In this document: positions 3,773 through 48,642 of the stretch, one piece after another
How positions within the stretch are numbered: the stretch's first letter is position 1
Layout: each line of letters opens with the position of its first letter
NCBI GenBank assembly: GCA_029850535.1
Contig: JARCRU010000101.1
Span: forward strand, 62,001-126,000
DNA length: 64,000 bases
Source: Actinomycetota bacterium
GTDB taxonomy: Bacteria > Actinomycetota > Acidimicrobiia > Acidimicrobiales > RAAP-2
Direction: 5' to 3'
Notes under the pieces: model-generated
Told to the model about the DNA's origin: nothing
Seen by the model: the letters and a program-made list of their open reading frames with translations, nothing else
The model's database searches: none
Translations under genes and position numbers: made by a program

Positions 3773-5163
3773 GAGGACATCAGAGGCAAACGAACTTTGT
3801 GTCGTGGGCCTCTCGTGACCGACACGAGTTCACCCAGCAGGTGGTAGGGGGCACCGTGAGTGACCGTGACCGTCGCGAGCGATCCGGGTCGCAACACCGC
3901 GTCGCTCAGGGGGAAGTGAATGAGTTTGCCCTGGCGAGTTCGACCCGAGAGCATCTGGTCGTTACGCCGCGAGGCTCCTTCGACGAGTACCTCCTCGACG
4001 AGACCCTCGCGAGCCTCGTGGTGCCGGAGCGCTGAGCGGTCCAGCACGTCCTTGAGACGTGCGAAGCGACCCGCAATCGCCTCATCGTCAATGAAGTCCG
4101 CCGTCATTTCGGCCGCGCGAGTCCCGGCGCGCGCCGAGAAGATGAAGGTGTAGGCCGAATCGAAGTCGGCCTCGGCCACCACTTCGAGTGTCTCGTTGAA
4201 ATCGCGCTCCGTCTCACCGGGGAATCCAACAATCAGGTCCGTGGTCACGTGCAGGTCCTCGATGCCGGCGCGCGCGGACGCGAGCCGCTCGAGATAGCGC
4301 TTCGCGCTGTAACCACGGCGCATCATCCTCAGCACCCGATCCGAACCCGACTGCAACGGCAGGTGCAATTGCGGACACACCGCCGGAGTCTCGGCCATGG
4401 CGGCAATCGTCTCGGGCCGCAAGTCCTTCGGGTGGGGACTGGTGAAACGAATCCTCTCGATGCCCTCGATCTCGCCCAGGGCACGCAGCAGATCGGAGAA
4501 GAGGGGCCGACGTCGGGTGATGTCACGACCGTAGGAATTGACATTCTGACCCAATACGGTGATCTCGGTGACGCCCGACTTGGCGAGCATCTCGCCTTCA
4601 GCAATGAGGTCGTCGAATGGTCGACTGATCTCGCCACCGCGCACCGAGGGCACGATGCAGTAGGCGCAGGTGTTGTCGCACCCGGTCTGAATTGTCATCC
4701 ACGCCGCCCAGGGCAACTCGCGCACCGCGTAGAGCGCCGGCGCCATGTCGCGTGCGGTGTCGGGGTCGGGCGCGTCCCAGACGTCGACGACCGGTCCCTC
4801 CAGCGCCGCGCGACGCAACAACGCCGGTGCCTGCGCAAGGTTGTGGGTGCCAAAGACCACGTCAACCCACGCCGCACGCTCGAGAATCTCACCCCGATCC
4901 TTTTGGGCCATGCATCCGCCCACCGCGATCTGCATCTCGGGACGACGCTCCTTCTCAGCCTTCAGGTGACCCAGCGCGCTATAGAGTTTCAAATCGGCGT
5001 TCTCGCGGATCGTGCAGGTGTTGAAGATCACCACGTCCGCCGACGTATCGCTCTGCGCCTCAACCATGCCTTCACTCACTAAGAGACCGGCGAGGCGCTC
5101 GGAATCGTGTTCGTTCATCTGACAGCCAAAGGTGCGAATCGCGAAAGTTTTGGGCTCAGACAC
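3769..5163 (-). CDS. miaB: tRNA-2-methylthio-N6-dimethylallyladenosine synthase
   Basis: Radical-SAM methylthiotransferase that completes ms2i6A37 in tRNA. The 464 residues show the N-terminal MTTase domain with its three cluster cysteines (C14, C50, C84), the radical-SAM CxxxCxxC (C162, C166, C169) and a C-terminal TRAM domain. The GTG start has no clear ribosome-binding site. TAGGCT lies exactly six bases upstream, suggesting a leaderless mRNA. It leads the miaB-miaA-dapF-hflX-dapC run, and its stop overlaps miaA. Confidence 0.97.
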   Translation of the reverse strand: MSEPKTFAIRTFGCQMNEHDSERLAGLLVSEGMVEAQSDTSADVVIFNTCTIRENADLKLYSALGHLKAEKERRPEMQIAVGGCMAQKDRGEILERAAWVDVVFGTHNLAQAPALLRRAALEGPVVDVWDAPDPDTARDMAPALYAVRELPWAAWMTIQTGCDNTCAYCIVPSVRGGEISRPFDDLIAEGEMLAKSGVTEITVLGQNVNSYGRDITRRRPLFSDLLRALGEIEGIERIRFTSPHPKDLRPETIAAMAETPAVCPQLHLPLQSGSDRVLRMMRRGYSAKRYLERLASARAGIEDLHVTTDLIVGFPGETERDFNETLEVVAEADFDSAYTFIFSARAGTRAAEMTADFIDDEAIAGRFARLKDVLDRSALRHHEAREGLVEEVLVEGASRRNDQMLSGRTRQGKLIHFPLSDAVLRPGSLATVTVTHGAPYHLLGELVSVTRGPRHKVRLPLMSS

Positions 5164-5169
5164 CCCGCC

Positions 5170-5175
5170 AGCCTA
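5170..5175 (-). promoter_or_regulatory. Putative -10 (TAGGCT) for leaderless miaB
   Basis: TAGGCT followed by six bases (GGCGGG) and then the GTG start of miaB. It matches the TAnnnT form of an actinobacterial -10 element at the distance that would put the transcript start on the start codon. GGCGGG touches the start too closely to be a good Shine-Dalgarno sequence. No -35 is recognisable. Confidence 0.5.
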
Positions 5176-5205
5176 ATCTTTGGACCCTTCGCTCACCTCG
5201 CGACC

Positions 5206-6075
5206 CTACTGCGGCACGACCTCTTCGGGTGCGGTGCGATCCATCGTGACCCCCGCGCCCGCCACCACCACGCACACCAGGCCCATCAGCACCCACGACG
5301 TGGCACGTTGGTGCAAGATGAGCGCACCAATCACGAAGGCCAGCGCCGGATCCAAACTCATCAGCACCCCCGCCACCGCCGGGCTGAGTCGGCGCAGGGC
5401 TTGCAATTCGGCGGCGAACCCGAGCACGATGGACATCAGGCCCACCAGGAGCAAACGTCCACCGAGCGAGGGGTGATGCACGACGAGCACGACCTTGGAC
5501 AACGCCCAGGGCAGGGTGACCAGGGCGCTCACCGACATCGACACTGCGAGCCCGCCGAAACCGGACGTGGCTCCCCCCACTCGCGCGGCCGCGAAGACGT
5601 ACCCACCCCACCCCAGTCCACTCAAGAGTCCGAACATCGCCCCCACCAGCGTGACGCCACCACCGGGGTGGGACAACAGGACGACACCGGCGGCCGCGAG
5701 GAAGGCGAAACTGACGTGTCGCCAGGACCGGCGACCAAAGACCGCCACGCTGAGTGGACCCAGGAATTCAATGGTCACCGCACTGCCCAGCGGGATTCGT
5801 GCGATGGACTGGTAAAAGCACACGTTCATGAACGCCACCGTGACGCCCAGCACGATGGCCGCGCGCCACTGGTCGCGGCGCCACTGGCGTAGTCGTGGTC
5901 GTGTTATCGCCATCAAGATGGCCGCCCCGAGGAGGAATCGCCATCCGCTGGTGGCAACGGGGCCGAGATCGGCGAAGGCGGGTTGAACCAGGGCGGCCGA
6001 CCACTGAATAGATGTGGCGCCCAAGATGATGAAACCAGCGCCCACGAGAGACACTGGCGAGGTGGGTGTACTCAC
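5206..6075 (-). CDS. EamA/RhaT-family (DMT superfamily) membrane transporter
   Basis: A 289-residue integral membrane protein with about ten hydrophobic segments in two repeats, as in EamA/RhtA-type drug/metabolite transporters that export amino acids or metabolites. I take the GTG at 6075 (VSTPTSPVSLVGAG), one base after the thrB stop. The longer track ORF would read through thrB in another frame. Being directly downstream of homoserine kinase, it might export threonine or homoserine as RhtA does, but the substrate is inference. A 42-base gap separates its stop from the miaB start. Confidence 0.85.
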   Translation of the reverse strand: MSTPTSPVSLVGAGFIILGATSIQWSAALVQPAFADLGPVATSGWRFLLGAAILMAITRPRLRQWRRDQWRAAIVLGVTVAFMNVCFYQSIARIPLGSAVTIEFLGPLSVAVFGRRSWRHVSFAFLAAAGVVLLSHPGGGVTLVGAMFGLLSGLGWGGYVFAAARVGGATSGFGGLAVSMSVSALVTLPWALSKVVLVVHHPSLGGRLLLVGLMSIVLGFAAELQALRRLSPAVAGVLMSLDPALAFVIGALILHQRATSWVLMGLVCVVVAGAGVTMDRTAPEEVVPQ

Positions 6076-6076
6076 C

Positions 6077-6928
6077 TCACTCGTTGAGCTGGAGCCCACG
6101 CCGGTCGGCGTCGATCTCCCAGACTTCGCCCGGCACGGAATGTGCGACGAGAAACTCACGCGCCTCCTTGGCCACCTCTGGCGAGGTTCGCTCGTCGCAG
6201 AGTGCCAACATCGTCGAGCCGGCCCCCGACCAGCACGAGCCGGCGGCGCCCGCCTCGCGCAGTCGGGTGAGGAGCGGTTGAGCGAACGCCAGCAGCGACA
6301 TCCGATAGGGCTGGTGCAAGAAGTCGTCCATCGATCCCGGCGCGAAGTCCTCGTGGTGCGCGAGCCCGGCAATCAATAGGGCGACAGCACTCACGTTGTG
6401 CACCGCGTCCTTGAAGGGCACGTGCTGCGGCAACACCCGGCGGGCGTCGGCGGTCGGCAACTCCTCCTCAGGCACCACGACGACGAACCGCCACGCGGGG
6501 TCGAGCATCAGCGTTCGCGCGAGGACTGAATTATTCTCGTCGACACCGGCGACCACCAAGCCTCCGAGAAGTGAAGCGGCGGCATTCTCCGCGTGACCGT
6601 CGATCTCGGTGGCGAGGGCCAGGGGCGAGGCGGAACCCGCCGCGGCGGCAGCGGCCAGGGCGAGCGCCGCCGACGAGCCCAAGCCCCGCGAGAGTGGAAT
6701 CTCCGACCTCACGTGCAAAGCGAAGCGATCGTGACCGAGGACCCGCGTGGCCACTCGCGCACCCAAGTGACGCTGGTCGTCGAAGAGCCCCGCGCCACAG
6801 CCCTCGGACGTGATCGAAAAGCTCTCCGCCGGCTCCACCGACACCTCGACATAACGAGCGAGAGCCAACGCGAGGGCGTCAAAACCTGGTCCAAGATTGG
6901 CCGAACTGGCCGGAACGCGCGCGAGCAT
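6077..6928 (-). CDS. thrB: Homoserine kinase
   Basis: GHMP-family kinase that phosphorylates homoserine on the route to threonine. The 283-residue protein begins with the ThrB signature VPASSANLGPGFD, has the GHMP ATP-binding motif IPLSRGLGSSAA (77-88), and has the C-terminal GSCWSGAGST glycine loop. The ATG lacks a ribosome-binding site but follows TAGCCT by exactly six bases, inside the end of the carboxypeptidase gene. A transporter gene follows after one base. No thrC or hom is in the window. Confidence 0.95.
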   Translation of the reverse strand: MLARVPASSANLGPGFDALALALARYVEVSVEPAESFSITSEGCGAGLFDDQRHLGARVATRVLGHDRFALHVRSEIPLSRGLGSSAALALAAAAAAGSASPLALATEIDGHAENAAASLLGGLVVAGVDENNSVLARTLMLDPAWRFVVVVPEEELPTADARRVLPQHVPFKDAVHNVSAVALLIAGLAHHEDFAPGSMDDFLHQPYRMSLLAFAQPLLTRLREAGAAGSCWSGAGSTMLALCDERTSPEVAKEAREFLVAHSVPGEVWEIDADRRGLQLNE

Positions 6929-6932
6929 AGAG

Positions 6933-8150
6933 TCAGGCTACGCGTTGCACCAGGGTCAGCGGAGTCAGACGATGCACGACCGTCAGGGGAACTCGCAGGT
7001 TCGATCCGTCGTTGACGCTCAGCCAGCCGACCACTTGCCCCGCCGAGATCGGTCCCGTTTGGGGGAAGATGTCGACGTGGGTCTGGGCTCCGTTCAGGGC
7101 CGTCAAATAGGCAATTCGTACGTGAAGTTTGGTCACCACGTTCACACGTTCGTTATCCCAGCCGATCGATCCGACCACCGTACCGGCGGGGATGTCGGCC
7201 GCGAATTGTGAGTTCACCACCGAATGCGCCAGGGCGAGGGCCTCGTCACCGGCGGGTCCCAAGAGGTCACCGCCGCGAGCCCCAAGAACGACCGCGTAGG
7301 CCAGTTGACTCTGCCCATCGAACGTGAACGTCATGGCCATCACGTCACACCCGCCGGCCGCATCGGTGCGTCCCGACTTGACACCCACGACATTGTCCTG
7401 GCCCACGAAAGGGGTGTAAGTGGCCAGGGTCCCCGCCACCGGCAGAGTCACCGTTGGTTGGATGACGATGGCTCGCACAACGGGATACTTCATCAGGAGG
7501 GCTGCGAGTTCACCCTGGTCGAGTGCGGTTGAGACCGATCCCGAACCGATGCCCGATACGTCGACGTAGTGAGTACCCGTCAGACCAAGTATCTGCGCGT
7601 CGGCGTTCATGTGGGCGATGAAGTTCTGGGTGCCACCCCACGCGAGGTTCGCCAGCAGGGTCGCGAAGTTGCCCGCAGAGTGCACCAATAGCCCCGCCAG
7701 CAATTGGTCTTCGCAGAGCCGTTCACCTACCGCGACCGCCGCACTGGACTGACCCTGAGCCGCGATCGCGTCGTAGAAGGCGACGTCGCCGGCGTTGATG
7801 TTGATGCACGGGCCACTCTCGCCCGGGTTCAGGGGCAGCTTCTGCAGTGTGACGTAGGCGGTCATCAATTTGGTGAGACTGGCGATCGGCAGGACCACAT
7901 TGTGGTACGACCGCTTGATTCCCAAGGCGGGAATCACGACAGCGGCACTCCCCACGTTGGGCCAGGCGATCGGCGTCGTGGCGGGTATGCGAAGGGAGGA
8001 GAGATTCGACTCAAAGGTCGAAGCCTGGTGCAGCAGGGGGACCTGCATCATGAATATCATGCCCGCCGCCATCGACGCGCCGACGGTCAGTGAGAACCCG
8101 CGAGTCACGAGACCGCGAAGTGCCGGGTGCTGAAACGAGAAACGAGACAC
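6933..8150 (-). CDS. D-alanyl-D-alanine carboxypeptidase (peptidase S11 family)
   Basis: Membrane-anchored, low-molecular-weight penicillin-binding protein, expected to trim D-Ala from peptidoglycan stem peptides outside the cell. The 405 residues start with an uncleaved-looking hydrophobic segment (about 15-40). The active-site motifs follow: SLTK (91-94), SAGN (158-161, the SxN position) and KSG (258-260). The C-terminal part resembles the beta-rich S11 tail. The GTG start follows TAACGT by six bases, overlapping the ftsK stop. The motif order supports the family firmly; the exact paralogue (DacA/B/C) is not resolved. Confidence 0.88.
   Translation of the reverse strand: MSRFSFQHPALRGLVTRGFSLTVGASMAAGMIFMMQVPLLHQASTFESNLSSLRIPATTPIAWPNVGSAAVVIPALGIKRSYHNVVLPIASLTKLMTAYVTLQKLPLNPGESGPCININAGDVAFYDAIAAQGQSSAAVAVGERLCEDQLLAGLLVHSAGNFATLLANLAWGGTQNFIAHMNADAQILGLTGTHYVDVSGIGSGSVSTALDQGELAALLMKYPVVRAIVIQPTVTLPVAGTLATYTPFVGQDNVVGVKSGRTDAAGGCDVMAMTFTFDGQSQLAYAVVLGARGGDLLGPAGDEALALAHSVVNSQFAADIPAGTVVGSIGWDNERVNVVTKLHVRIAYLTALNGAQTHVDIFPQTGPISAGQVVGWLSVNDGSNLRVPLTVVHRLTPLTLVQRVA
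6935..6940 (-). promoter_or_regulatory. Putative -10 (TAGCCT) for leaderless thrB
   Basis: TAGCCT, six bases (GACTCT), then the thrB ATG. The hexamer overlaps the last codons of the upstream carboxypeptidase gene, so a promoter here would be internal to the apparent operon. No -35 consensus is visible. Confidence 0.5.
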
Positions 8151-8156
8151 TCAATG

Positions 8157-8162
8157 ACGTTA
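8157..8162 (-). promoter_or_regulatory. Putative -10 (TAACGT) for leaderless carboxypeptidase gene
   Basis: TAACGT, six bases (CATTGA), then GTG. The hexamer includes the ftsK stop codon region, so the downstream gene may have its own promoter despite a nine-base spacing to ftsK. Confidence 0.45.
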
Positions 8163-10520
8163 CTGGGTCTCGTCGAGTTCGTCGCGCGAGATCAACACCT
8201 TGCGGGCCTTGGAACCGTCACCCGGTCCCACGACCCCTTCAATTTCTAGTTGATCCATGAGTCGCCCGGCCCGGGCGAAGCCCACTCGCAGCTTGCGCTG
8301 GAGCATCGACGTCGAACCCGACTGATTGCGAATGACGATCTCACGAGCCTGGCGCAGGATCTCGTCGTCATCGTCGCCCGAACCCGTGGCCGACTCGCTG
8401 CGACCAGCGGGAATGTCCAGCGCCACGACCGTCTCACGTTGCCCACCCTGGGCGCGCCAGTTCTCCACCACGCGACGCACTTCGTCCTCGGACACCCACG
8501 GAGACTGGAGTCGGCGCGCAATATTGCTCGAGGCGGTCACGAGCAGCATGTCACCCTTGCCGATCAGCCGCTCCGCACCCGCCTGGTCCAAGATGACGCG
8601 ACTGTCAGCCAATGACGACACCGCGAAGGCCATTCGCGACGGCACGTTGGCCTTGATGACGCCGGTGATCACGTCGACGCTGGGTCGCTGGGTGGCGAGC
8701 ACCAGATGGATGCCGACCGCACGGGCCATCTGAGCAATGCGTACGACGGACTCTTCGACGTCGCGCGCCGCCACCATCATCAGATCATTGAGCTCATCAA
8801 CCACGATCACGATGTAGGGCAATACTTCAGGTTCTCGGGCGTTCACGCCCGCGTCGAAGGAAGTCGAGCGTTCGATGGCCTCGCCGACCAACTCCTCAGT
8901 GGTCGCCTCGAGCTCCACGGCACCACGGGCCAACATCTGCTGGTAGCCCGTGATGTCACGCGCGCCATTCTCGGCCAAGACGTCGTAGCGACGCTCCATC
9001 TCCTTGACGGCCCACGCCAGCGCGCCGGCGGCCTTCTTTGGATCGACCACCACCGGCGCCAACAAGTGGGGCAGGTCGTTGTAGTTACCCATCTCGACCC
9101 GCTTGGGGTCCACCAGCAAGAGTTTTACCTGATCGGGTGTCGCGCGCATGACGAGTGACGTGATGAGTGAATTGATGCACGAACTCTTTCCCGCTCCCGT
9201 CGCGCCCGAAATCAGCACGTGGGGCATCTCGCCCAGATTGACGACGACGGTCTTGCCTGAGATGTCACGACCGATGGGCACGTCGAGGGGATGCGTCGCG
9301 GCGACGGCCTCGTCGGAGGCGAGTAGGTCACCCAGCGCTACGAGGGCGCGCTGCCGATTTGGCACCTCCACACCGATGGCCGAACGCCCGGGGATCGGTG
9401 CGAGGATGCGCACGTCCGGGCTGGCCATGGCGTAGGCGATGTCCTTATTCAGCGAGGTGACTCGTGACACCTTCACCCCCGCACCGAGTTCGAGCTCGAA
9501 GCGCGTCACCGTAGGCCCCATCGTGAAGCCGACGAGGGTCGTTTCCACACCGTGCGCGCCGAGCGCACTCACGAGCTCCTCTCCCGCCGCCTCGATCGCG
9601 TCACGGTCCTGTCGCAGTTCACGGGTCCGTGAGAGCAGTGACATCGGTGGCAGTTCCCAGTGGGACTCTTTCGTGCCGAAATAAAACGCTGGTCGTGGGA
9701 CCTCCTCTGGTTCCTCCTGGTAGGCCTCCACGTCGCGATCGCCCTCCTCCTCGACGTCGTCACCGTCGGTGAAGCCCACGGTGACTGCCTCGACGTGGAC
9801 CCCCTCGTCGTCCGGCTGCGGATCACTCGTGCGGCGCCGACGCGGTGGTGTGTCGGTGGTGCGGATCACTTCGATCTCGGGCACCCCATCGGGTTCGTAG
9901 TTGGTCGTCGTAGGTCGTGCGCTCCACCACGTAGCGAAGTGACGACCCAGGTACGAAAAAACCGCACCGCTGGACGCAAACAGGGAGCGTAGACCAACCG
10001 ACGTGCCGATCATGACCGCAATGATCAACACCGCCAGCAACGCCGCGACGGCTCCCCCCGGCCCGATGAATCGAGCGAGCGATCCTCCGACGGCGACGCC
10101 AAGCCAGCCGCCCGCGCGGCCGAGTTCCGCGAGTGGTGCGCGCAACGACGGACGACCTTGTGCGATGTCGCCCATACCCGACACGGCCACCAGTGCCAAG
10201 GAGACCGCCCAGAGAAATCGAGCTCGTTCTACCTGCACTCGTCCAGTGACGAGGACAACACCCAGACCAATCAGCAAGACGGGCACGGCCACGCGTCCCA
10301 CACCGAATGTCGCCTTGAGCCCTTCATTGACCCCGCGTCCCGCGAGACCTAGCGCGTTGATCTCGGCGAGCAAAATCAACAGACCCGCCAAGATCATGAG
10401 GACAATCCAAATATCTCGCTGGTGACGACTCCACAGTGTCTCGGGAGTGACGGTCGCGTGACGAGTCCGTGTCTTATTCTTTCCCTGGCTGGGTGGAGAT
10501 GTTCGACGAGAGTTTGCCAT
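8160..10520 (-). CDS. ftsK: DNA translocase FtsK/SpoIIIE family
   Basis: Membrane-anchored, hexameric ATP-driven DNA pump that clears and resolves chromosome termini at division. The 786 residues hold four to five N-terminal membrane helices (about 37-180), an acidic linker (about 200-290), the RecA-like motor with Walker A GATGAGKS (439-446) and a Walker B region LLLVDPKRVE, then a C-terminal gamma winged helix (TSMLQRKLRVGFARAGRLMD). I prefer the ATG at 10520 to the GTG one codon earlier because GGAAG is better spaced. XerC, its usual partner, is encoded at 34365-35270. Confidence 0.96.
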   Translation of the reverse strand: MANSRRTSPPSQGKNKTRTRHATVTPETLWSRHQRDIWIVLMILAGLLILLAEINALGLAGRGVNEGLKATFGVGRVAVPVLLIGLGVVLVTGRVQVERARFLWAVSLALVAVSGMGDIAQGRPSLRAPLAELGRAGGWLGVAVGGSLARFIGPGGAVAALLAVLIIAVMIGTSVGLRSLFASSGAVFSYLGRHFATWWSARPTTTNYEPDGVPEIEVIRTTDTPPRRRRTSDPQPDDEGVHVEAVTVGFTDGDDVEEEGDRDVEAYQEEPEEVPRPAFYFGTKESHWELPPMSLLSRTRELRQDRDAIEAAGEELVSALGAHGVETTLVGFTMGPTVTRFELELGAGVKVSRVTSLNKDIAYAMASPDVRILAPIPGRSAIGVEVPNRQRALVALGDLLASDEAVAATHPLDVPIGRDISGKTVVVNLGEMPHVLISGATGAGKSSCINSLITSLVMRATPDQVKLLLVDPKRVEMGNYNDLPHLLAPVVVDPKKAAGALAWAVKEMERRYDVLAENGARDITGYQQMLARGAVELEATTEELVGEAIERSTSFDAGVNAREPEVLPYIVIVVDELNDLMMVAARDVEESVVRIAQMARAVGIHLVLATQRPSVDVITGVIKANVPSRMAFAVSSLADSRVILDQAGAERLIGKGDMLLVTASSNIARRLQSPWVSEDEVRRVVENWRAQGGQRETVVALDIPAGRSESATGSGDDDDEILRQAREIVIRNQSGSTSMLQRKLRVGFARAGRLMDQLEIEGVVGPGDGSKARKVLISRDELDETQ

Positions 10521-10566
10521 CACCTTCCAAGTTACCGAACACTCATTCGCTCCAGTGTCATCCGTC

Positions 10567-10572
10567 TAATCT
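10567..10572 (+). promoter_or_regulatory. Putative -10 (TAATCT) for leaderless FAD-protein gene
   Basis: TAATCT, six bases (GGTGCG), then the ATG at 10579. It lies in the 55-base divergent gap between ftsK and this plus-strand gene. There is no ribosome-binding site, and no clear -35 was found. Confidence 0.55.
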
Positions 10573-10578
10573 GGTGCG

Positions 10579-11349
10579 ATGGCCGACCCCCAACACCAAA
10601 GTACCCTCGACTTAGCAACCCGTCTCAAAGTCCTCGCGCGCAGCTGCACCGTCGTTGCGCGACGCCCCCTCTCATCGTCACTCGTGGAAGTAGTCCTACG
10701 TGGTGACGCGTCGCACTTGGCCGGGGTTCCCGGTAACGACGTCATGTTGCTCGTGGGCGCCGACGGCGAGTCCCCCACGCGACGCCGCTACAGCGTGCGT
10801 TCGGTCGATGCGACAGCCGACACCTTCACCCTCTGGATCGCGGCGGCACACGATGGCCCCGGTGGCCGGTGGGCGCGCACGGTTGACGAGGGTGACGTCG
10901 TCGACGTGGTGGGACCTCGTGGCAAGATTCCCCTCGACGAGGTCGCCGACTGGCACCTCTTCATCGGCGACGTCCCCTCCATGGGGGCCTTCTTTCGAAT
11001 GGCGCAGAGTATCGACGTTCCCGGTCGAGCCATCTTCATCCTCGAACTCGACGACCCCACGGACGCGTTGACCCCCACCTTCGACGAGGCCCTCGGCGTG
11101 ACGGCAATCTTCGTCGATCGCGATGGACGAGCGCACGACGACCCCACGGGCCTGCTGGGCGGACTCGCCGCCTTCACGCTCCCCCCCGACGAGGGCCACG
11201 CCTATCTCTTCGGAGAATTCCACGTGATGCGCGCAGTGAAGACGGCCCTACTCGATCGCGGACTTCGCTCCGAACAGATCTCCCTCAAGGCCTACTATCG
11301 AATCGGTCAGGCCAACGGCGCCAACGGCGAGCCGTCCAAGGACGTTTAG
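10579..11349 (+). CDS. Siderophore-interacting-family FAD/NAD(P)H oxidoreductase
   Basis: A 256-residue flavoprotein of the SIP/ViuB type, related to ferric-siderophore reductases. An N-terminal FAD-binding barrel contains the RRYSVR motif (about residues 74-79), followed by a SIP-type NAD(P)H domain with the GD, GE and final YYRIG motifs. The family usually ends with a YWR-like aromatic motif, so YYRIG is a variant. Known members reduce iron chelates, but no siderophore biosynthesis or uptake gene is in the window, so the substrate is open. It is a plus-strand singleton with a likely leaderless start. Its stop overlaps the rnj stop by four bases. Confidence 0.8.
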   Translation: MADPQHQSTLDLATRLKVLARSCTVVARRPLSSSLVEVVLRGDASHLAGVPGNDVMLLVGADGESPTRRRYSVRSVDATADTFTLWIAAAHDGPGGRWARTVDEGDVVDVVGPRGKIPLDEVADWHLFIGDVPSMGAFFRMAQSIDVPGRAIFILELDDPTDALTPTFDEALGVTAIFVDRDGRAHDDPTGLLGGLAAFTLPPDEGHAYLFGEFHVMRAVKTALLDRGLRSEQISLKAYYRIGQANGANGEPSKDV

Positions 11350-13896: not shown

Positions 13897-13902
13897 GTAA
13901 CG

Positions 13903-13908
13903 AAGTTA
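13903..13908 (-). promoter_or_regulatory. Putative -10 (TAACTT) for leaderless dapA
   Basis: TAACTT, six bases (CGTTAC), then the dapA ATG, in the 41-base gap after dapB. It implies that dapA-rnj can be transcribed separately from dapB. No -35 match. Confidence 0.5.
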
Positions 13909-13937
13909 CCAGTGATGGTGCCCGCCTCGGAGTCGTC

Positions 13938-14708: not shown

Positions 14709-14714
14709 TCCGTC

Positions 14715-14720
14715 ACCCTA
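14715..14720 (-). promoter_or_regulatory. Putative -10 (TAGGGT) for leaderless dapB
   Basis: TAGGGT, six bases (GACGGA), then the dapB ATG. It sits between the pnp hairpin and dapB, consistent with a new transcript. No -35 consensus is seen. Confidence 0.5.
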
Positions 14721-14756
14721 TCGGTCGACTCACGCGACAACGTGACCGAACGACGA

Positions 14757-14795: not shown

Positions 14796-14816
14796 TGCGC
14801 CAAAATCTATAGGCGC

Positions 14817-17754: not shown

Positions 17755-18705
17755 CTATCCTAGCAGGACCCAGGCCCCGGGCGTAAATTTCTCGAAGATT
17801 TCCTCACATCGCTGGACGTCGAGGGTCATTTGGGTCACTAGATCCGCCAAAGTGTCGAAAACGGCCTCGCCGCGCAGCCGTTCGAGGAACGCCACGTCTA
17901 GGACCACGTCGTAGAGGTCACCGTCGAAGCCCGGCAGGTGCACTTCCACCAGCAGGTCACCCTCCTCGTAGAACTGGGGGCGCGTGCCCACCGACACCGC
18001 ACCGCATCGCCACTCTCCTCGTCCCCAGCGCACCGCCGCCGCGTAGATTCCCGTCGCGGGCAATTTCTGTCGTGGCGCGCCGCGCAAATTGGCGGTGGGA
18101 AATCCCAGATCCCGTCCACGCGCGTCGCCATGGGCGACGGGGGCGCGAAGGACGAAGGGCCGCCCCAGAATCTCGCGCGCGCCGCGCACGTCGCCCTCAC
18201 CCAGACGCGCACGCACCTCAGTGGAACTGAAACGACTAGCCCCCCCGTAGGTCGGTGACGTGTGGACCCGGAAACCGTGGCGCTCCCCCTCGCGCGCCAG
18301 CAGCGCGATGTCGCCCTCGCGACCGCGCCCGAAGTGCACGTCGTCACCGACGACGAGATCCGTCGTACCCAAGTAGCCCACCAGAACTCGCTCCACGAAC
18401 GCCGCCGCACTCTCTCGCGCGGCGAACTCGTCAAAACTCAGGACGCCCACCTGGTCGACGCCGAGGATCTCGAGTCCCTCGAGTCGTTGCTCGAGAGTGC
18501 CGATCAACTCCGGTGCGCTCGTGGGCGACAAGACCTGCGCCGGGTGGGGATCGAAGGTGACGATGCTCGCCGCACCACCCACCTGTGACGCGAGGCGAAC
18601 GACGTGTTCGATCAAGGCTTGATGCCCGAGATGCAGACCATCGAAGACGCCAAACGCCGTCACGCTCGGACGTTGCATCTGCGCGTCGAAATTGCTTCGT
18701 CTCAC
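17755..18705 (-). CDS. ribF: Bifunctional riboflavin kinase / FAD synthetase
   Basis: Makes FMN from riboflavin and then FAD. The N-terminal nucleotidyltransferase half shows FGVFDGLHLGHQ and the later SSTEVR, while the C-terminal kinase half has GFPTANL and the GTRPQFYEE region. I choose the GTG at 18705 (316 aa), which overlaps the truB stop as GTGA and has GAGGG eight bases upstream. The internal ATG at 18678 (307 aa) has no ribosome-binding site. It ends the rimP-nusA-infB-truB run, an order seen in many bacteria. Confidence 0.94.
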   Translation of the reverse strand: MRRSNFDAQMQRPSVTAFGVFDGLHLGHQALIEHVVRLASQVGGAASIVTFDPHPAQVLSPTSAPELIGTLEQRLEGLEILGVDQVGVLSFDEFAARESAAAFVERVLVGYLGTTDLVVGDDVHFGRGREGDIALLAREGERHGFRVHTSPTYGGASRFSSTEVRARLGEGDVRGAREILGRPFVLRAPVAHGDARGRDLGFPTANLRGAPRQKLPATGIYAAAVRWGRGEWRCGAVSVGTRPQFYEEGDLLVEVHLPGFDGDLYDVVLDVAFLERLRGEAVFDTLADLVTQMTLDVQRCEEIFEKFTPGAWVLLG

Positions 18706-19595
18706 TGTTCGTGCCCTCGCGGCGCCATGACGATCTCGGGCTTCCACAGTTCCCCGCGACGACGCAGGACCCCGACGAGTTCACCGTCGCGCTCGAAGAC
18801 GGCGATCTCGTCGCCCTCGAAACTCTCGCCCAGCGCAACACGCTGACCCATGCGCATCTTGGCGACGTCGCCCTCTCCTAGGACGTGCGACTCCAAACTC
18901 TCCACCAGTCGCCTCGGGGGGGCCAGAGCGGAGGTGACGTCCTCGAGTGCGGTGACTTCTTCGAGCGTGAGCGCGTCGTGCACGTGATGAGTGCCACTGG
19001 CAATTCGTCGCAGGGCCGTCAGGTGACCCAGGGTCCCCAACGCCATCGCCAGGTCACTCAGTAGGACTCGAACGTAGGTTCCCACCGAGCACGTGACGTC
19101 GAAGTCCCAGTCGCCACTCTGCTCCGTGGGGGTGAGGACGAACGACTCAATCACGATGTCGCGAGGCGCGCGCTCCACCTCAATACCCTCTCGAGCCAAT
19201 TCGTGCAGTCGTCGCCCCTTGACCTTTAGCGCCGAAACCATAGGTGGGACTTGCGTCTGGGGTCCGATCATCGCCGCGGCCGCCGCATTGACCACTTCGA
19301 GTGACAACTCCGGCACGGTGGCCGTGGCGACAATCGCACCGTCAGCGTCGAGTGAATCGGTGGCGACGCCCAAGCGTACGGTACCGATGTAGTGCTTGGA
19401 CTGCGACTGCGCGAAACGCAGGAGCCGCGTCGACGACCCGACGGCCACCACCAGCAGTCCCGTGGCCATGGGGTCGAGGGTCCCGGCGTGACCGATGCGA
19501 CGCTCATTCAACACTTTTCGCAAACGCGCCACCACGTCGTGGCTGGTCAACCCGGCCGGCTTGTCGATCAGCAGCAGACCACTACTCGTCGTCAT
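18702..19595 (-). CDS. truB: tRNA pseudouridine-55 synthase
   Basis: Forms pseudouridine 55 in the T-loop of tRNAs. The 297-residue protein has the catalytic Asp41 in GHAGTLDPMATG, the KHYIGTVRLG strand, the later VPPMVSALKVKGRRLHELA motif, and a C-terminal PUA-like domain. The ATG at 19595 is used because upstream residues of the track ORF overlap rbfA in another frame. The chosen start still overlaps rbfA by 14 bases. Its stop is coupled to ribF. Confidence 0.96.
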   Translation of the reverse strand: MTTSSGLLLIDKPAGLTSHDVVARLRKVLNERRIGHAGTLDPMATGLLVVAVGSSTRLLRFAQSQSKHYIGTVRLGVATDSLDADGAIVATATVPELSLEVVNAAAAAMIGPQTQVPPMVSALKVKGRRLHELAREGIEVERAPRDIVIESFVLTPTEQSGDWDFDVTCSVGTYVRVLLSDLAMALGTLGHLTALRRIASGTHHVHDALTLEEVTALEDVTSALAPPRRLVESLESHVLGEGDVAKMRMGQRVALGESFEGDEIAVFERDGELVGVLRRRGELWKPEIVMAPRGHEQ

Positions 19596-35277: not shown

Positions 35278-35283
35278 AGGCTA
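35278..35283 (-). promoter_or_regulatory. Putative -10 (TAGCCT) for leaderless xerC
   Basis: TAGCCT, seven bases (TGGCGGT), then GTG at 35270. The spacing is one base longer than the six seen elsewhere in the window. It supports the shorter xerC start. Confidence 0.35.
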
Positions 35284-35344
35284 GCGACGTCGATAGCCGA
35301 CCTCACGTCACTTACTAGTGTGGGGTGTGAGGTGAGGAGAACGA

Positions 35345-38374: not shown

Positions 38375-38382
38375 GATCTCGC

Positions 38383-38562: not shown

Positions 38563-38573
38563 TAGCTCTCACT

Positions 38574-39143
38574 CTACTCCGCGGCACCCTGATAAAGAGC
38601 GATGACTTCGCCGGGCATGTACAATTTCAGGCTCTCCGTATCAAGTGGAGTCTCGCGCAGGAAGGTGCTGGACAAGTCCACCGGCGCCATGGCAATTTCG
38701 TAGCAATTCCACCCGTCGGGCGCCACGAGTGGCGTGCCAGGGCGCGGGATGATCCCGACTGCCACCAGTTCGCGCAATTCGGCCGCACGATGCCAGGTCG
38801 GCAGTTGGGGCGCCAGATCCGCGCCAATCAGGACATCGACCTGATCGGTCTCCTCCAGCAGTTCCATGACCGTGTCGATGGTGTAGGAAGGTCCGGGCCG
38901 ATTGATCTCTCGATCGCTCACGCGCACCAGTTCTAAATCATCGAAGGCGACCGTCGCCATCGCTAGGCGCAGTGGGGCCGAATGCACTTGGCTCACCGCA
39001 CTCTTGCGATAGGGATCACCGGCCACGGTCACTTCGATCAGATCGAATCGCCCCGTAGCGGCGGCCGCGCGTAACGCCGCGACGTGTCCGTTATGGGGTG
39101 GATCGAACGTGCCCCCGAAGAGGCCGAGACGACGGAGGAGCAC
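38574..39143 (-). CDS. nadD: Nicotinate-nucleotide adenylyltransferase
   Basis: Converts nicotinate mononucleotide to deamido-NAD. The 189 residues include the nucleotidyltransferase motif GGTFDPPHNGH (10-20), the IGADLAPQLPTWHRA segment and the C-terminal SSTFLRE variant of the ISST motif. The GTG start follows TAGGCT by six bases without a ribosome-binding site. It is divergent from DAHP synthase and upstream of rsfS. Confidence 0.94.
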   Translation of the reverse strand: MLLRRLGLFGGTFDPPHNGHVAALRAAAATGRFDLIEVTVAGDPYRKSAVSQVHSAPLRLAMATVAFDDLELVRVSDREINRPGPSYTIDTVMELLEETDQVDVLIGADLAPQLPTWHRAAELRELVAVGIIPRPGTPLVAPDGWNCYEIAMAPVDLSSTFLRETPLDTESLKLYMPGEVIALYQGAAE

Positions 39144-39149
39144 CTCATC

Positions 39150-39155
39150 AGCCTA
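39150..39155 (-). promoter_or_regulatory. Putative -10 (TAGGCT) for leaderless nadD
   Basis: TAGGCT, six bases (GATGAG), then the nadD GTG. It lies in the 57-base divergent region shared with the DAHP synthase promoter, so both divergent genes appear leaderless. Confidence 0.5.
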
Positions 39156-39164
39156 ACGGCACAA

Positions 39165-39194
39165 TTGCTGAGTCTCCAATCAAACCTCTAGCCT
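39165..39194 (+). promoter_or_regulatory. Promoter TTGCTG-N18-TAGCCT for leaderless DAHP synthase
   Basis: TTGCTG (39165-39170) and TAGCCT (39189-39194) are 18 bases apart, and the -10 is followed by six bases and the ATG at 39201. It is the only leaderless candidate here with a plausible -35. Confidence 0.6.
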
Positions 39195-39200
39195 TAGGTC

Positions 39201-40580
39201 ATGTCTGAACGTACACCGTGGAACCCCGCCAGCTGGCGAGAGCGCATCGCCGCGCAGAGTCCCTTGTGGCCCGACGCCGACCACCTCTCGCGCGTCGAGG
39301 CCGAACTCGCCACCAAGCCACCACTCGTCTTCGCGGGTGAAGCGCGCCGCCTCACCCAGCAACTGGGTAAGGCCGCTCACGGCGAGGCCTTCTTGTTACA
39401 GGCCGGCGACTGCGCGGAGTCCTTCGAGGATTCCTCCGCCGACGCCATCCGTGACAAGTTGAAGGTCATCTTGCAGATGGCCGTGGCCCTCACCTACGCC
39501 TCGGGGGTACCGGTCGTGAAGGTGGGTCGTATCGCGGGACAATTCGCGAAGCCGCGGTCCGAGCACTACGAGGAACGCGACGGCGTACGACTGGACGCCT
39601 TCCGGGGTCACATCGTCAACCACGAGGCCTTCAACGAGGATGCCCGTCGTCCCAACCCTGAGCGTCTCCTCGACGCCTACCACCAGAGTGTCGCGACGCT
39701 GAACCTGTTGCGCGCCTTCACTACCGGTGGTTTCGCCGCCCTGACGAGGGTCCACGCCTGGAACCAGGAGTTCGTCACGAATTCGCCCGAAGGCAAACGC
39801 TACGAGGTGCTCGCCGACGACATCGATCGCGCGCTCGCCTTCATGCGCGCCTGTGGCGTCAACCTCGACGTCGACCACGAACTCTCGAGCGTGGACTTCT
39901 ACACCAGTCACGAGGCGTTGATCTTGCCCTACGAGCAGGCCCTGACTCGTCAGGACTCCCTGACTGGTGACTGGTACGACTGCTCGGCGCACATGCTCTG
40001 GATCGGTGACCGCACGCGCCAGGTCGACGGCGCCCACGTCGAGTTCCTGCGCGGCGTCGCCAACCCCATTGGGCTCAAGGTGGGACCCAGCACGAGTGTC
40101 GACGACCTCAAAACGCTACATTCGCTGTTGAACCCCCACAACGTGCCCGGTCGGCTGACCTTGATCGCGCGCATGGGGCGTGACAAGGTGAGCACCCTCC
40201 TGCCACCCCTGGTGACCGCGATGAAGGATGAGGGTGCTGAGGTGCTCTGGACCTGCGACCCCATGCACGGCAATACCTTTAAGGCCAGTGGTGGGCAGAA
40301 GACTCGTCGTTTCGACGACGTTCTCACCGAAGTGGCCCAGTTCTTCGCTGTGCACCAGGCCCTCGGCACCTGGCCCTCGGGTCTACACATCGAGTTGACC
40401 GGGGGCAACGTGACCGAGTGCCTCGGGGGAGGCGACCAGCTCGACGAATCTGATCTTGACACCAACTACACCTCGATCTGCGACCCGCGTCTCAACGCGT
40501 CGCAGAGTCTCGACATGGCCTTTCACGTCAGTGAATTCCTTCAGCGCGCGGTCACCGCACGCGGCGCGCGGTCGTTGTAA
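39201..40580 (+). CDS. 3-deoxy-7-phosphoheptulonate synthase, class II
   Basis: First step of the shikimate pathway, of the plant/actinobacterial AroA-II type. The 459 residues show [29 protein letters not shown], the metal and substrate motifs WCDPMHGN-like (WTCDPMHGN) and the [15 protein letters not shown] segment. Length matches the family. It is probably leaderless. Its last 40 bases overlap the convergent phosphatase gene. Symbols vary between aroF, aroG and aroH, so none is assigned. Confidence 0.96.
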
Positions 40581-42609: not shown

Positions 42610-42612
42610 GCG

Positions 42613-43548
42613 CTAAGAGGAACGCCCGAGAATCTCGCGCGTCGCTTTCTCGATATCGGACTGGTACTTGAGCAGGACGTGCAGGGTCTCGGCTACCAGG
42701 TCTTCACCTAGTTCTTCGCGTCCCAGGATCACCAGCGTCCGTGCCCAGTCGAGGGTCTCAGAGACCGAGGGTGACTTCTTTAAGTCCATCATCCGCAGCG
42801 AGCGCACCACCTGAGAGATCTGCTCGGCCAGGGCCGTGGCGATCCCGGGCACCCTCGAGAGAATGATGTCGCGCTCACGCTCCACGTCGGGATATCCCAG
42901 GTGCAGGTACAAGCAACGCCGCTTGAGGGCCTCGGAGAGTTCGCGGGTGTTGTTCGACGTCAAGAAGACCATGGGAATCTGTCGAGCCTTGAGAGTGCCC
43001 AGTTCGGGAATCGACACCTGGTATTCCGAGAGAATCTCCAAGAGCAACGCTTCGGTCTCGAGTTCGACGCGGTCGACCTCGTCGATCAGGAGCACCACCG
43101 GATCGGTGGCGGTGATGGCTTCGAGCAAGGGACGCGTCAGCAGGAACTCCTCGGCGAAAATGTCCTCTTCGAGTTCGGACCACACCTCAGCGGATCCCTC
43201 AGGTCGCCCAGCTTGAATACGCAAAAGTTGCTTGCGGTAGTTCCACTCGTAGAGCGCCTTGGTCTCGTCGAGCCCCTCGTAACACTGCAGGCGGATCAGT
43301 CGCGCACCGAGCGACTCGGCCACGGCCTTGGCCAAGGCCGTCTTGCCCGTACCGGCGGGTCCTTCGACCAGGACCGGCTTCGCGAGGCGATCCGCGAGGA
43401 AGGTGACGGAGGAGATGGCGTCTGAACTGAGGTAGTCGTGCTCGGCCAAGCGAGAGTGCAGGTCCTCGGGCGACGAGAATCGCACCGGGGGCACCTCGGT
43501 CAGCCCCAGGCGCTCGGCGAGCTCGTGACGCGGATCGAGGGCGCTCAC
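42613..43548 (-). CDS. MoxR-family AAA+ ATPase
   Basis: AAA+ chaperone of 311 residues with Walker A GPAGTGKT, Walker B VVLLIDEVDR, a sensor-1 TSNNTREL and a C-terminal lid. I take the GTG at 43548, which overlaps the proA stop as GTGA; the 62 extra residues in the track are antisense-like. It precedes the VWA partner with a three-base gap. It is CoxD-like in size and motifs, but the client is not in this window. Confidence 0.9.
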   Translation of the reverse strand: MSALDPRHELAERLGLTEVPPVRFSSPEDLHSRLAEHDYLSSDAISSVTFLADRLAKPVLVEGPAGTGKTALAKAVAESLGARLIRLQCYEGLDETKALYEWNYRKQLLRIQAGRPEGSAEVWSELEEDIFAEEFLLTRPLLEAITATDPVVLLIDEVDRVELETEALLLEILSEYQVSIPELGTLKARQIPMVFLTSNNTRELSEALKRRCLYLHLGYPDVERERDIILSRVPGIATALAEQISQVVRSLRMMDLKKSPSVSETLDWARTLVILGREELGEDLVAETLHVLLKYQSDIEKATREILGRSS

Positions 43549-44777: not shown

Positions 44778-44783
44778 GGTGCA

Positions 44784-44789
44784 ATCGTA
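44784..44789 (-). promoter_or_regulatory. Putative -10 (TACGAT) for leaderless proA
   Basis: TACGAT, six bases (TGCACC), then the proA ATG, in the 22-base gap after proB. It suggests that proA can be transcribed independently of proB. Confidence 0.5.
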
Positions 44790-44799
44790 CTGGAGGCCG

Positions 44800-45873
44800 C
44801 TACGGACGCCGCAGCAGCACCAGGTCGTCGCGGTGCACGATGACGTCGTCGGCGTCGTTGAACGACTCGGCGCTGGCGCGCACTAGACCCTTGGCCACCA
44901 CCGCGCCACCGGGACCGTGCACCTCCACGGCGTCGCCTTCGACGAAATCACCCGTGATGGACTCCACACCCACGCGCAGCAAACTGCGACCGTGGTTCTC
45001 GAGAGCCTCCAGGGCGCCCTGGTTGATCGAAACAACTCCCGAGGACGCCACCGCGAAGGCGATCCAGGCCTTACGGGCCGACAGTCGCTCGCCGCGCGCT
45101 TCGAACGTCGTTCCGAAGTCGTGGGTTCCCGTCAACGCGCGCAGCAACGGAGTCTCGGCGCGCGCCGGCGCGATCACGGTGGTGACCCCCGACCAGGTCG
45201 CCATACGCGCCGCCGCCACCTTCGAGGCCATGCCACCGCTACCCACTCCCGATCGACTCGCGCCCGCGACGTTTTCGAGTCGCGAATCGATCGAGGTGAC
45301 GACGTCGATCAAGGTGGCCGAGGGGTCCAAACGCGGGTCGGCGGTGAGTAGTCCCGGCGTGTCGGTCAAGAGCACCAGGTGGCTCGCCGTCACGAGGTTC
45401 GCCACCAGCGCCGCCAGGCGATCATTGTCACCAAAACGAATCTCCTCATCGGCCACGGCGTCATTCTCGTTGACGACCGCCACCACCCCGAGTGCGTGCA
45501 GAGCCGTCAAGGTAGAGCGTGCGTGCAGGTACTGTCCGCGGTGCGAGAAGTCGAGGGGGGCCAACAAGACTTGACCCACGGCGACCCCATGGGGGGCGAA
45601 CGCCCGCCGCCACGCGTCCATCAGCAGTGGCTGTCCCACCGCCGACACCGCTTGCAGGATCGTCGAATCCGTCGGTCGTCCTCGACCCTCGCCCACGTGC
45701 GCCCAGCCCGCGGTGATGGCCCCCGACGTCACCACGACCACCGACCATCCCTGCTCGCGCAGCGTCACCACGTCGTGCGCCAGTGACGACAGAACGTCGT
45801 GGGCGACGCCGCCGCGCGCGTCGGTCACCGAGGTGGTCCCGATTTTGACGACGACGCTACGATCCGTCGTCAT
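44800..45873 (-). CDS. proB: Glutamate 5-kinase
   Basis: First step of proline synthesis. The 357 residues comprise an amino-acid-kinase domain (VVKIGTTSVTD, VTSGAI, NENDAVADEE, FGDNDRLAA, GSGGMASKV) and a C-terminal PUA domain. The start is within the last codons of obgE: three in-frame ATGs (45897, 45882, 45873) are possible. I use 45873 (TTDRSVVVKIG), the best match to the family length. It overlaps obgE by 17 bases. The feedback site for proline cannot be judged from sequence alone. Confidence 0.94.
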   Translation of the reverse strand: MTTDRSVVVKIGTTSVTDARGGVAHDVLSSLAHDVVTLREQGWSVVVVTSGAITAGWAHVGEGRGRPTDSTILQAVSAVGQPLLMDAWRRAFAPHGVAVGQVLLAPLDFSHRGQYLHARSTLTALHALGVVAVVNENDAVADEEIRFGDNDRLAALVANLVTASHLVLLTDTPGLLTADPRLDPSATLIDVVTSIDSRLENVAGASRSGVGSGGMASKVAAARMATWSGVTTVIAPARAETPLLRALTGTHDFGTTFEARGERLSARKAWIAFAVASSGVVSINQGALEALENHGRSLLRVGVESITGDFVEGDAVEVHGPGGAVVAKGLVRASAESFNDADDVIVHRDDLVLLRRP

Positions 45874-47236
45874 CGTCGTCATCGTCTCCCACGCCATCGA
45901 GACGTCCGTGGCGCGCCAGGCGCTCGCGGCGCGTGACGCGGTGTCGCTCACCACGATCGAGACCCGAACCCACCTCGTCGCGCCACCATTCGAAGGACAG
46001 CGGACCAATGGTGACCACGTCACCATCGCGCACTCCCGCGCGATTGAGCACGCGGTCGACGCCGAGGTCCTTGAGACGCTTCACGATCTCGGCCAGGGCT
46101 TGGTCGTCGGTCAGGTCCTGAAACCGCACCGCGCGTTCAGCGGAGCGACCGCTCACTCGCCAGTTCGTCTCACCCGTTCTCTCGAGCGTGATTTCGTCAG
46201 GCACGGGCTTGTGCACCACCACTTGGTGCTCGTTCTGTTCCGCTTCGCGCGAGCGCACTTCGAGCACGAGTCCCGCGAGGCGCGCACTCAGTGCGTCGAT
46301 GCCAGATCCCGTTACCGCCGAAATGGTCGGGACTCCCTCGACCTCCTGAGCGGCCACGTCGCCCTTGGAACCCACGACCACTCGGGGGCGATCGAGTAAG
46401 TCGGCCTGGTAGTCACCGAGTTCGCGCAGCAGAATGGCCAGCTGTTCCTCGGGACCCAGGGGCGCGAACTCCGAGAGGTCCAGAAGTACGCACAGCACGC
46501 GGGCGCGCTCGACGTGGCGCAAGAAATCGTGTCCGAGACCTCGACCTTCCGCCGCCCCTTCGATCAATCCCGGGATATCGGCCATGACGTATTCCGTCGC
46601 GTCCTGGGGGCGACCCGAGCGAGCGCCCACGCGCACCACGCCGAGATTGGGCACGAGGGTCGTGAAGGGGTAGTCCGCGATCTTGGGTCGCGCGGCCGAC
46701 ACGCGCGAGATCAACGTCGATTTGCCCACGTTGGGAAAGCCAATCAACGCCACGTCAGCTTGCAGCTTCAACTCGAGGTTGTACCAACGCTCCTCGCCCA
46801 CTTCGCCTTGTTCGGCGAAGGCGGGTGCTCGACGCTGGTTCGAAAGAAAACGGTTGTTCCCCTGTCCACCCAACCCCCCCGCGGCGGCCAGCCAACGGTC
46901 GCCGGGTCCCGAGAGATCCACCAGCAACTCTCCCTCCTGGGAGTGCACCAGTGTCCCCACCGGCACCGCGACGATGATGTCTTTACCGTTGGAGCCGTGC
47001 ATGCGCTTGGACGTGCCGTGCTGACCGTCGGTGGCTCGGCGAAAGGGGTGATCGCGAAAGCCCAGCAGCGACGCCTGGTTGTGGTCGGCGACCAGCCAGA
47101 CGTCACCCCCCTTGCCACCGTCGCCGCCATCGGGACCACCCTTAGCGACGTGGGCCTCGCGGCGAAACGAGACGCAGCCCGCGCCACCGTCGCCGGCCTT
47201 GGCGTGCAGTTGGGCCGAATCGACGAAGCTACTCAC
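45857..47236 (-). CDS. obgE: GTPase ObgE/CgtA
   Basis: Essential 50S-assembly and stress GTPase. The 459 residues have the glycine-rich Obg fold (GDGGAGCVSFRREAHV), G1 GFPNVGKST, G3 DIPGLIEGA and a C-terminal OCT domain (VRFQDLTDDQALAEIVKRL). They end in a basic stretch and an Asp run. The GTG follows TAGGAT by six bases. The Asp-run codons (GAT/GAC) contain the ATGs of proB in the other frame. The usual rplU-rpmA-obgE cluster is split here, because rpmA-rplU lie about 3 kb away. Confidence 0.96.
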   Translation of the reverse strand: MSSFVDSAQLHAKAGDGGAGCVSFRREAHVAKGGPDGGDGGKGGDVWLVADHNQASLLGFRDHPFRRATDGQHGTSKRMHGSNGKDIIVAVPVGTLVHSQEGELLVDLSGPGDRWLAAAGGLGGQGNNRFLSNQRRAPAFAEQGEVGEERWYNLELKLQADVALIGFPNVGKSTLISRVSAARPKIADYPFTTLVPNLGVVRVGARSGRPQDATEYVMADIPGLIEGAAEGRGLGHDFLRHVERARVLCVLLDLSEFAPLGPEEQLAILLRELGDYQADLLDRPRVVVGSKGDVAAQEVEGVPTISAVTGSGIDALSARLAGLVLEVRSREAEQNEHQVVVHKPVPDEITLERTGETNWRVSGRSAERAVRFQDLTDDQALAEIVKRLKDLGVDRVLNRAGVRDGDVVTIGPLSFEWWRDEVGSGLDRGERHRVTRRERLARHGRLDGVGDDDDDDDGS

Positions 47237-47242
47237 CGCTCC

Positions 47243-47248
47243 ATCCTA
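47243..47248 (-). promoter_or_regulatory. Putative -10 (TAGGAT) for leaderless obgE
   Basis: TAGGAT, six bases (GGAGCG), then the obgE GTG. The GGAG inside the spacer is too close to the start to act well as a ribosome-binding site. No -35 is evident. Confidence 0.5.
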
Positions 47249-47265
47249 GGACCCGCCTCGAGGAG

Positions 47266-48630
47266 CTATCCGACCAGTTCATCGAGCGCGGCGTCAAACA
47301 CCCGCTGGTGCTGGGCCACGTGCTCGCTCGTCGTCGCCGGGCACATCAGGGCCATGTTGTGAAACGGAGTGAGCACGACCCCACGGTTAATGGTGTACAG
47401 GTGCAGATACTCCTCGAGCGTCTTGTCGGTGCTCGCGGCGGATTCGCCACCATTGGTCGGGGCGGGATCCATGAAGCGGTACTCGCAACGCGTTCCGAGT
47501 TGGCTCACCGACCACGACACGCCGTGGCGAGTGATCGATTCGCGCACCCCCAGGGTGAAGGTCGTCGCCAGCACTTCCATACGCGCGAAGGATTCATCGG
47601 TCAAGACCTCGCCGAGGACTGCGCGCATGGCTGCCAAACTCATGGCGTTGCCCGCCAAGGTGCCACCGACTCCCCCCACGTCAGTGATGTCCACCCCCTC
47701 GGTCAGGGCGCCCATGAGGCGTTGCGCGAGCGATTCACTCAACCCGAAGGCCCCACAGGGCACTCCCCCACCCAGCGACTTACCGATAGTCAGCGCGTCC
47801 GGCTGGAGTCCGTAGCGCCGGGTCGCACCCCCGGGACCCGCGGAGAAGGTGTGTGTCTCGTCGAGGATCATCAAGGTGCCGGTCTCATCGCAGAGTCGTC
47901 GCACGCCCTCCCAGAATCCGGGCGCGGGCAACACGATGCCGATGTTGGTCAGCGCGGGTTCGGCCAGCACCGCGGCCACGTCGCCGTGTCGCAATTCGCG
48001 CTCCAGGGATTCGAGGTCATTGAACTCGACCACCCGGGTCGTGGTGGTTGGATCCACCGCGGGTGCGACGCAGCCGGGTCGCATCGCGGGACGTCCGTGT
48101 GCATCGACGATCACGAAAGTCTCGTCGACGCTGCCGTGGTAGCAGTAGGAGAAGACCAGGATTTTGGGACGTCGAGTGACTAGTCGCACCAGTCGCAACA
48201 GCCAGCGATTGGCGTCGGTCGCCGAGAGCGTGAACGACCACTGCGCCAGCCCGAACCGTCGAGTCAATTCGTGCGCGACCCACTCGCCATCTGATGTCGG
48301 CATCATCGTCGTCACGCCGCCCAGTCGCCCGACACGCTCCTCCAGGGCCCGCACGAGTGCGTCGGGCGAGTGCCCGGCCATCGCGCCGGTGTCGCCCAAG
48401 GCGAAGTCAACCAATTCGTGACCGTCCGCGTCGGTGATCATCGCGCCGTGGGCGCGTTCAAAGGCCAAGGGGAACCCGCCGGACCACTCGTTCATCCACG
48501 TCATCGGCACCCGGGCAAAGAGGTGGCGAGCTGCCTCATGGACGGCGAGCGAGCGAGGGTTGGCCCGACGGTACTGGCCGCGCTCGCGAGCGACCAACTG
48601 CGTCAAATGCTGACGATCAAAGGACTCCAT
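47266..48630 (-). CDS. Class III PLP aminotransferase, glutamate-1-semialdehyde aminomutase-like
   Basis: A 454-residue fold-type I class III enzyme with the PLP lysine in TIGKSLGGGVPCGAFG, the ILDETHTF aspartate motif and the VDFALGDTGAMAGH entry region. These features are close to HemL-type aminomutases and their transaminase paralogues. No other haem gene is nearby, and several substitutions relative to HemL (for example the CYHGSVDE segment) leave a different aminotransferase possible. ATG 48630 is used, following TACCAT by six bases. It precedes obgE on the minus strand. Confidence 0.75.
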   Translation of the reverse strand: MESFDRQHLTQLVARERGQYRRANPRSLAVHEAARHLFARVPMTWMNEWSGGFPLAFERAHGAMITDADGHELVDFALGDTGAMAGHSPDALVRALEERVGRLGGVTTMMPTSDGEWVAHELTRRFGLAQWSFTLSATDANRWLLRLVRLVTRRPKILVFSYCYHGSVDETFVIVDAHGRPAMRPGCVAPAVDPTTTTRVVEFNDLESLERELRHGDVAAVLAEPALTNIGIVLPAPGFWEGVRRLCDETGTLMILDETHTFSAGPGGATRRYGLQPDALTIGKSLGGGVPCGAFGLSESLAQRLMGALTEGVDITDVGGVGGTLAGNAMSLAAMRAVLGEVLTDESFARMEVLATTFTLGVRESITRHGVSWSVSQLGTRCEYRFMDPAPTNGGESAASTDKTLEEYLHLYTINRGVVLTPFHNMALMCPATTSEHVAQHQRVFDAALDELVG

Positions 48631-48636
48631 CGCCCC

Positions 48637-48642
48637 ATGGTA
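48637..48642 (-). promoter_or_regulatory. Putative -10 (TACCAT) for leaderless aminotransferase gene
   Basis: TACCAT, six bases (GGGGCG), then the ATG at 48630. It lies at the edge of the HU-aminotransferase divergent region. Confidence 0.45.

Follow-up and report, generated by a model that had tools for sequence, protein, structure and literature searches.

The window, a stretch of 64,000 nucleotides (C101:62001-126000), belongs to a genome assembly of 2.48 Mb in 146 contigs that is 93.6% complete. By polynucleotide phosphorylase (pnp), its nearest named relatives are genomes from metagenomes that carry the labels Acidimicrobiaceae or Acidimicrobiales; the top one is palsa_596 with 91% identity, and on the basis of this gene the genome is assigned to class Acidimicrobiia. 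All eleven genes listed by the first-pass annotation were found to carry, as claimed, a TAnnnT hexamer exactly six bases before an ATG or GTG start codon. On the minus strand these are miaB (TAGGCT, 5170-5175; GTG start 5163, coding sequence 3769-5163), thrB (TAGCCT, 6935-6940, inside the S11 gene; ATG 6928), the S11 carboxypeptidase gene (TAACGT, 8157-8162; GTG 8150), dapA (TAACTT, 13903-13908; ATG 13896), dapB (TAGGGT, 14715-14720; ATG 14708), nadD (TAGGCT, 39150-39155; GTG 39143), proA (TACGAT, 44784-44789; ATG 44777), obgE (TAGGAT, 47243-47248; GTG 47236) and the class III aminotransferase gene (TACCAT, 48637-48642; ATG 48630). On the plus strand, the gene of the SIP-type FAD protein (TAATCT, 10567-10572; ATG 10579) lies back-to-back with ftsK, and that of class II DAHP synthase (TAGCCT, 39189-39194; ATG 39201) is divergent from nadD. 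One gene that fits the rule equally well had been omitted from the list, namely clpP on the minus strand (TAAGGT, 61115-61120; GTG 61108), where the TAA is the stop codon of tig (61118-61120).

Looser spacings were also found on the minus strand. The near variants at xerC (TAGCCT, 35278-35283; GTG 35270, spacing 7) and ndk (TAGATT, 57634-57639; GTG 57625, spacing 8), and the doubtful ones at rplU (TACTAT, 50572-50577; ATG 50562, spacing 9) and tig (TAGGCT, 62462-62467; ATG 62452, spacing 9), are as previously described; ftsK (TAACTT, 10529-10534, spacing 8 to ATG 10520) is a further near variant that had not been listed. Family searches agreed with the names given to miaB, class II DAHP synthase, proA, obgE and the class III aminotransferase, supported those of dapA, dapB, the SIP-type FAD protein and the S11 peptidase, and identified the nadD product as a nadD-type cytidylyltransferase and that of thrB as a GHMP kinase.

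Two of the listed genes abut their upstream neighbours, so that their description as uncoupled does not hold. The S11 gene starts 9 nt past the ftsK stop, and the first half of its hexamer is the ftsK TAA (8160-8162); thrB starts 4 nt past the S11 stop, and the last T of its hexamer is the first base of the S11 TGA. We also observed two back-to-back pairs of candidate leaderless promoters whose start codons are about 57 bp apart, ftsK/SIP (10520-10579) and nadD/DAHP synthase (39143-39201).

The TAnnnT peak in the source genome

Genes were called with a finder for which only coding potential and the type of start codon decide the start, and which is blind to upstream bases. Within the window, the hexamer stood at spacing 6 in 10 of 56 genes called in this way, compared with 0.31 expected (Poisson P 1.6e-12); dapB and the S11 gene come in addition to these ten when their starts are set to 14708 and 8150. 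Genome-wide analysis covered 1.90 of the 2.48 Mb. A positional peak at six bases had been named beforehand as the decisive observation, and a sharp one was obtained (z of about 18 for ATG and about 6 for GTG). Counted without gene calls, TAnnnT at spacing 6 occurred 223 times before ATG against a frame-matched mean of 71 (excess 152), and 204 times before GTG against 133 (excess 71). No such peak was seen for TTG (excess -8) or CTG (excess 4) in the same 1.90 Mb. Weak shoulders accompanied the ATG peak (excess 37 at spacing 7 and 23 at spacing 8), while the GTG excess at spacing 7 was only 3. Among 1,509 motif-blind gene starts, 142 had the hexamer at spacing 6, 51 at 7 and 28 at 8; the background was 8.3, so that about 6% of the spacing-6 cases (8.3/142) are expected by chance, and the excess at spacing 9 was small (16 versus 8.3). 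For the ATG form alone, the whole assembly contained 280 sites at spacing 6 and 83 at spacing 12. The share of genes with a box close enough for an mRNA beginning at the start codon may thus be estimated at about one in ten (9-14% of called genes).

An artefact of chance or codon structure could be suspected from the period-3 variation of the background counts. It is refuted by the frame-matched comparison (71 and 133 versus 223 and 204) and by the flat TTG and CTG profiles, and we regard its probability as negligible. The same codon-phase background fully accounts for an apparent depletion of TTG at spacing 6, which was rejected as a signal.

The consensus at the peak reads TAGnnTGG, with G at the third base in 48% of cases and at the two positions that follow the box in 57% and 49%. 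No TTGACA signal was detected at a spacer of 16-19 (17 sites versus 18.4 expected at two mismatches), and there was no TGn extension around the box. C at position -1, considered as an initiator signal, occurred in 53% of cases versus 43-46% at other starts; this is not clearly stronger and gave no support. The Shine-Dalgarno (SD) sequence was absent from all 142 box genes, but when pyrimidine-rich hexamers in that position were taken as controls, only 1 of 152 genes had it; since the box and the SD compete for the same bases, its absence is uninformative. For this reason the earlier remark that genes with good ribosome-binding sites lack the hexamer, although true, has no evidential value. When TAnnnT lies 12-35 bases upstream, the SD rate rises to about 40% versus 24%; with per-bin P values of 0.03-0.2 this is suggestive, and we do not use it as proof. 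A 16S rRNA gene for an anti-SD check was not found in the source assembly.

From these results, a hypothesis regarding the function of the hexamers may be put forward: they are -10 boxes that place the transcription start on the start codon and give rise to leaderless mRNA, a situation known from Streptomyces and Mycobacterium. Judged from sequence, we assign this reading a probability of about 0.92. Each hexamer would be the -10 element of a promoter of the housekeeping sigma factor, and RNA polymerase would recognise TAnnnT together with a G-rich discriminator (TAnnnTGG) without a -35 hexamer. With the first T at -12, the six-base distance would put +1 on the A or G of ATG or GTG; the mRNA would therefore have no 5' leader, and ribosomes would initiate at the 5'-terminal start codon without an SD interaction. 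A closely related possibility keeps the hexamers as -10 boxes but places most transcription starts 1-3 bases ahead of the codon, producing very short leaders. The ATG shoulders at spacings 7 and 8, the spacing of 8 retained by ftsK and the spacings of 7 or 8 in many ribF orthologues would fit such a scheme; however, spacing 6 dominates, and GTG peaks only there (71 versus 3 at spacing 7), as one would predict if a 5'-terminal GTG tolerates no offset, which makes short leaders as the general rule improbable.

Operon position and conservation of the box

The box occurs preferentially in transcript-opening genes. At spacings 6-9 the excess amounted to 13.5% of all called genes; it reached 27% among genes in divergent orientation and 26% among those lying 12-49 nt behind a same-strand neighbour, but only about 4% (4.4%) among tight-operon genes. 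Simple arithmetic from the counts raises the share among divergent genes to about 39% if all starts with a near-best coding score are allowed, and we estimate that roughly a third of transcript-opening genes carry the box. This distribution bears on a different explanation, in which TAnnnT serves translation, being recognised by the ribosome, and is not a promoter. The fixed distance to the start codon is all that speaks for it, whereas the peak is nearly gone in tight operons (4.4% versus 27%), where translation signals are still needed and promoters are not, and the motif agrees with the -10 already described for Actinobacteria; we therefore consider a ribosomal signal very improbable. Divergent genes with a shared promoter region were also inspected, and the 12 pairs in which both genes appear leaderless, versus 8.2 expected, are not striking.

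The S11 gene and clpP represent a small class in which the stop codon of the upstream gene, TAA or TAG, doubles as the TA of the box. Across the genome, TARNNT was found at 12 of 24 TAA/TAG stops located 9-11 nt before the next gene, which corresponds to a box spacing of 6-8, compared with 11 of 122 such stops with other gaps from 3 to 40 nt (Fisher P 1e-5). The respective counts in relatives were 11 of 15 and 4 of 27, the genes being non-independent. A second register, with a gap of 4 and a box ending on the T of TGA, was seen at thrB and two other genes. Given the enrichment of TARNNT at the stops with a gap of 9-11 nt, the box appears to be selected in close gene pairs, probably as an internal promoter. 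Especially at thrB, the S11 gene, clpP and obgE, transcription may also come from a promoter further upstream, the box being an extra internal one.

We analysed the retention of the box in relatives recovered by a pnp search. Spacing 6 was kept in 8 of 9 relatives for the SIP gene, in 9 of 9 closest relatives for dapA and in 10 of 10 closest relatives for dapB, more distant dapB orthologues having a spacing of 7. In the relative L101, both the miaB box and its spacing are identical, and thrB has TACGCT at an equal spacing; the S11 box is a weaker case, retained in few relatives. In columns -45 to -13 of the SIP, dapA and dapB alignments the pairwise identity was about 40%, the flanks having diverged; the aligned rows had been chosen for spacing 6, so identity in the core columns is by construction, while the retention counts are unselected. 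The start codon alternates between ATG and GTG among relatives, as noted for dapB, while the register of the box holds. The box was essentially absent from the pnp, rpsO, nusA, rimP and infB orthologues of the relatives.

Spacing 8 was kept in 7 of 9 relatives for ftsK, which argues for ATG 10520 as its start over GTG 10523, the start of the longer reading frame. At ribF (18678-18720) the window differs from its relatives: in many orthologues the start lies another 30-36 nt upstream and is preceded by TAnnnT at 6-8 bases, and the window copy, whose start is uncertain, has no such box. The dapA box lies inside a longer block, CTGGTAACTTCG (13901-13912), kept in several relatives with diverged flanks, and this block is perhaps a regulator site or a special promoter.

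Acidimicrobiia and other Actinobacteria

The same signature was observed throughout the class. In the breadth table, which holds 123 class genomes after three genomes of the draw were omitted, the ratio of spacing-6 to spacing-12 sites exceeded 1.5 in 110 genomes, with a median of 3.6-fold. In 22 small, high-background genomes taken as a group the ratio was 1.11, equivalent to about 90 extra sites each. No clear TAnnnT-ATG peak at spacing 5, 6 or 7 was found in genomes G012, G004 and G126, and G122 lacked the spacing-6 peak, perhaps having one at 7 only; in these four, leaderless starts may have been lost, or the genomes may be misplaced. Leaderless transcription, proposed in the first-pass annotation, is thus supported by the positional peak, its restriction to ATG and GTG, the gene context, the register kept in relatives and the class-wide occurrence.

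In mycobacteria, RbpA is an essential RNA-polymerase factor acting together with CarD (PMC5302886). A search for RbpA (PF13397) found no match in 61 Acidimicrobiia, namely the source genome and 60 others at least 95% complete; across the phylum, the family was matched in only 13 of 119 genomes. A very divergent RbpA below the Pfam threshold is possible in this class. CarD is present in the source genome, PF02559 being matched in an open frame of 178 residues (G000:C92:2207-2386), and a second match fell in a frame of 1,155 residues that is Mfd-like by length. These data suggest a broader scheme, which we put forward tentatively and at somewhat less than even odds: Acidimicrobiia as a class would use -10-only leaderless promoters without RbpA, by means of the G-rich discriminator and CarD, closely spaced gene pairs would have co-opted an upstream TAA or TAG to supply the TA of the box, and the system would have been lost in a few lineages.

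Promoters of this kind have been reported before, in agreement with the earlier statement that TANNNT leaderless mRNAs are known in Actinobacteria. Zheng et al. 2011 (PMC3160421) predicted computationally the TANNNT leaderless genes of Actinobacteria and Deinococcus-Thermus, an average of 19.2% of actinobacterial genes being TA-like leaderless; Acidimicrobiia are not mentioned in the text of that paper. The genome studied here resembles that set in having TANNNT some 12 bp upstream of the start codon, a high-GC actinobacterial background, weak middle bases and a sizeable share of genes, but differs in the share itself (9-14% of called genes) and in that the box is sometimes built on an upstream stop codon. 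Transcription starts of leaderless genes have been mapped in mycobacteria (PMC3898074, PMC6448022): Mycobacterium tuberculosis has TANNNT promoters without a -35 motif (Cortes et al. 2013, PMC3898074), and the leaderless genes of M. smegmatis are enriched in amino-acid and cofactor biosynthesis (PMC6448022). The TANNNT -10, the lack of a -35 consensus and the ATG/GTG starts are common to both mycobacteria and the present genome, and thrB, dapA, dapB, proA, DAHP synthase and nadD recall the enrichment in M. smegmatis. In contrast to mycobacteria, with their mapped transcript starts and essential RbpA, the leaderless starts here are predicted from sequence and RbpA was not detected; no transcription-start study of Acidimicrobiia was found in the literature searched.

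The leaderless signature described here is real and statistically strong; it is of a kind already known from other Actinobacteria, while the lineage is new. A well-supported signature is thereby extended to a mostly uncultured class, in which the box can serve annotation as start-codon evidence for dapB, nadD, obgE, ftsK and other genes, and how the trait is lost may be studied by comparison with the lineages that lack a peak. Whether -10-only leaderless promoters depend on RbpA can be asked naturally in this class, where the factor is apparently missing: should its absence prove genuine, such promoters in Acidimicrobiia do without it.
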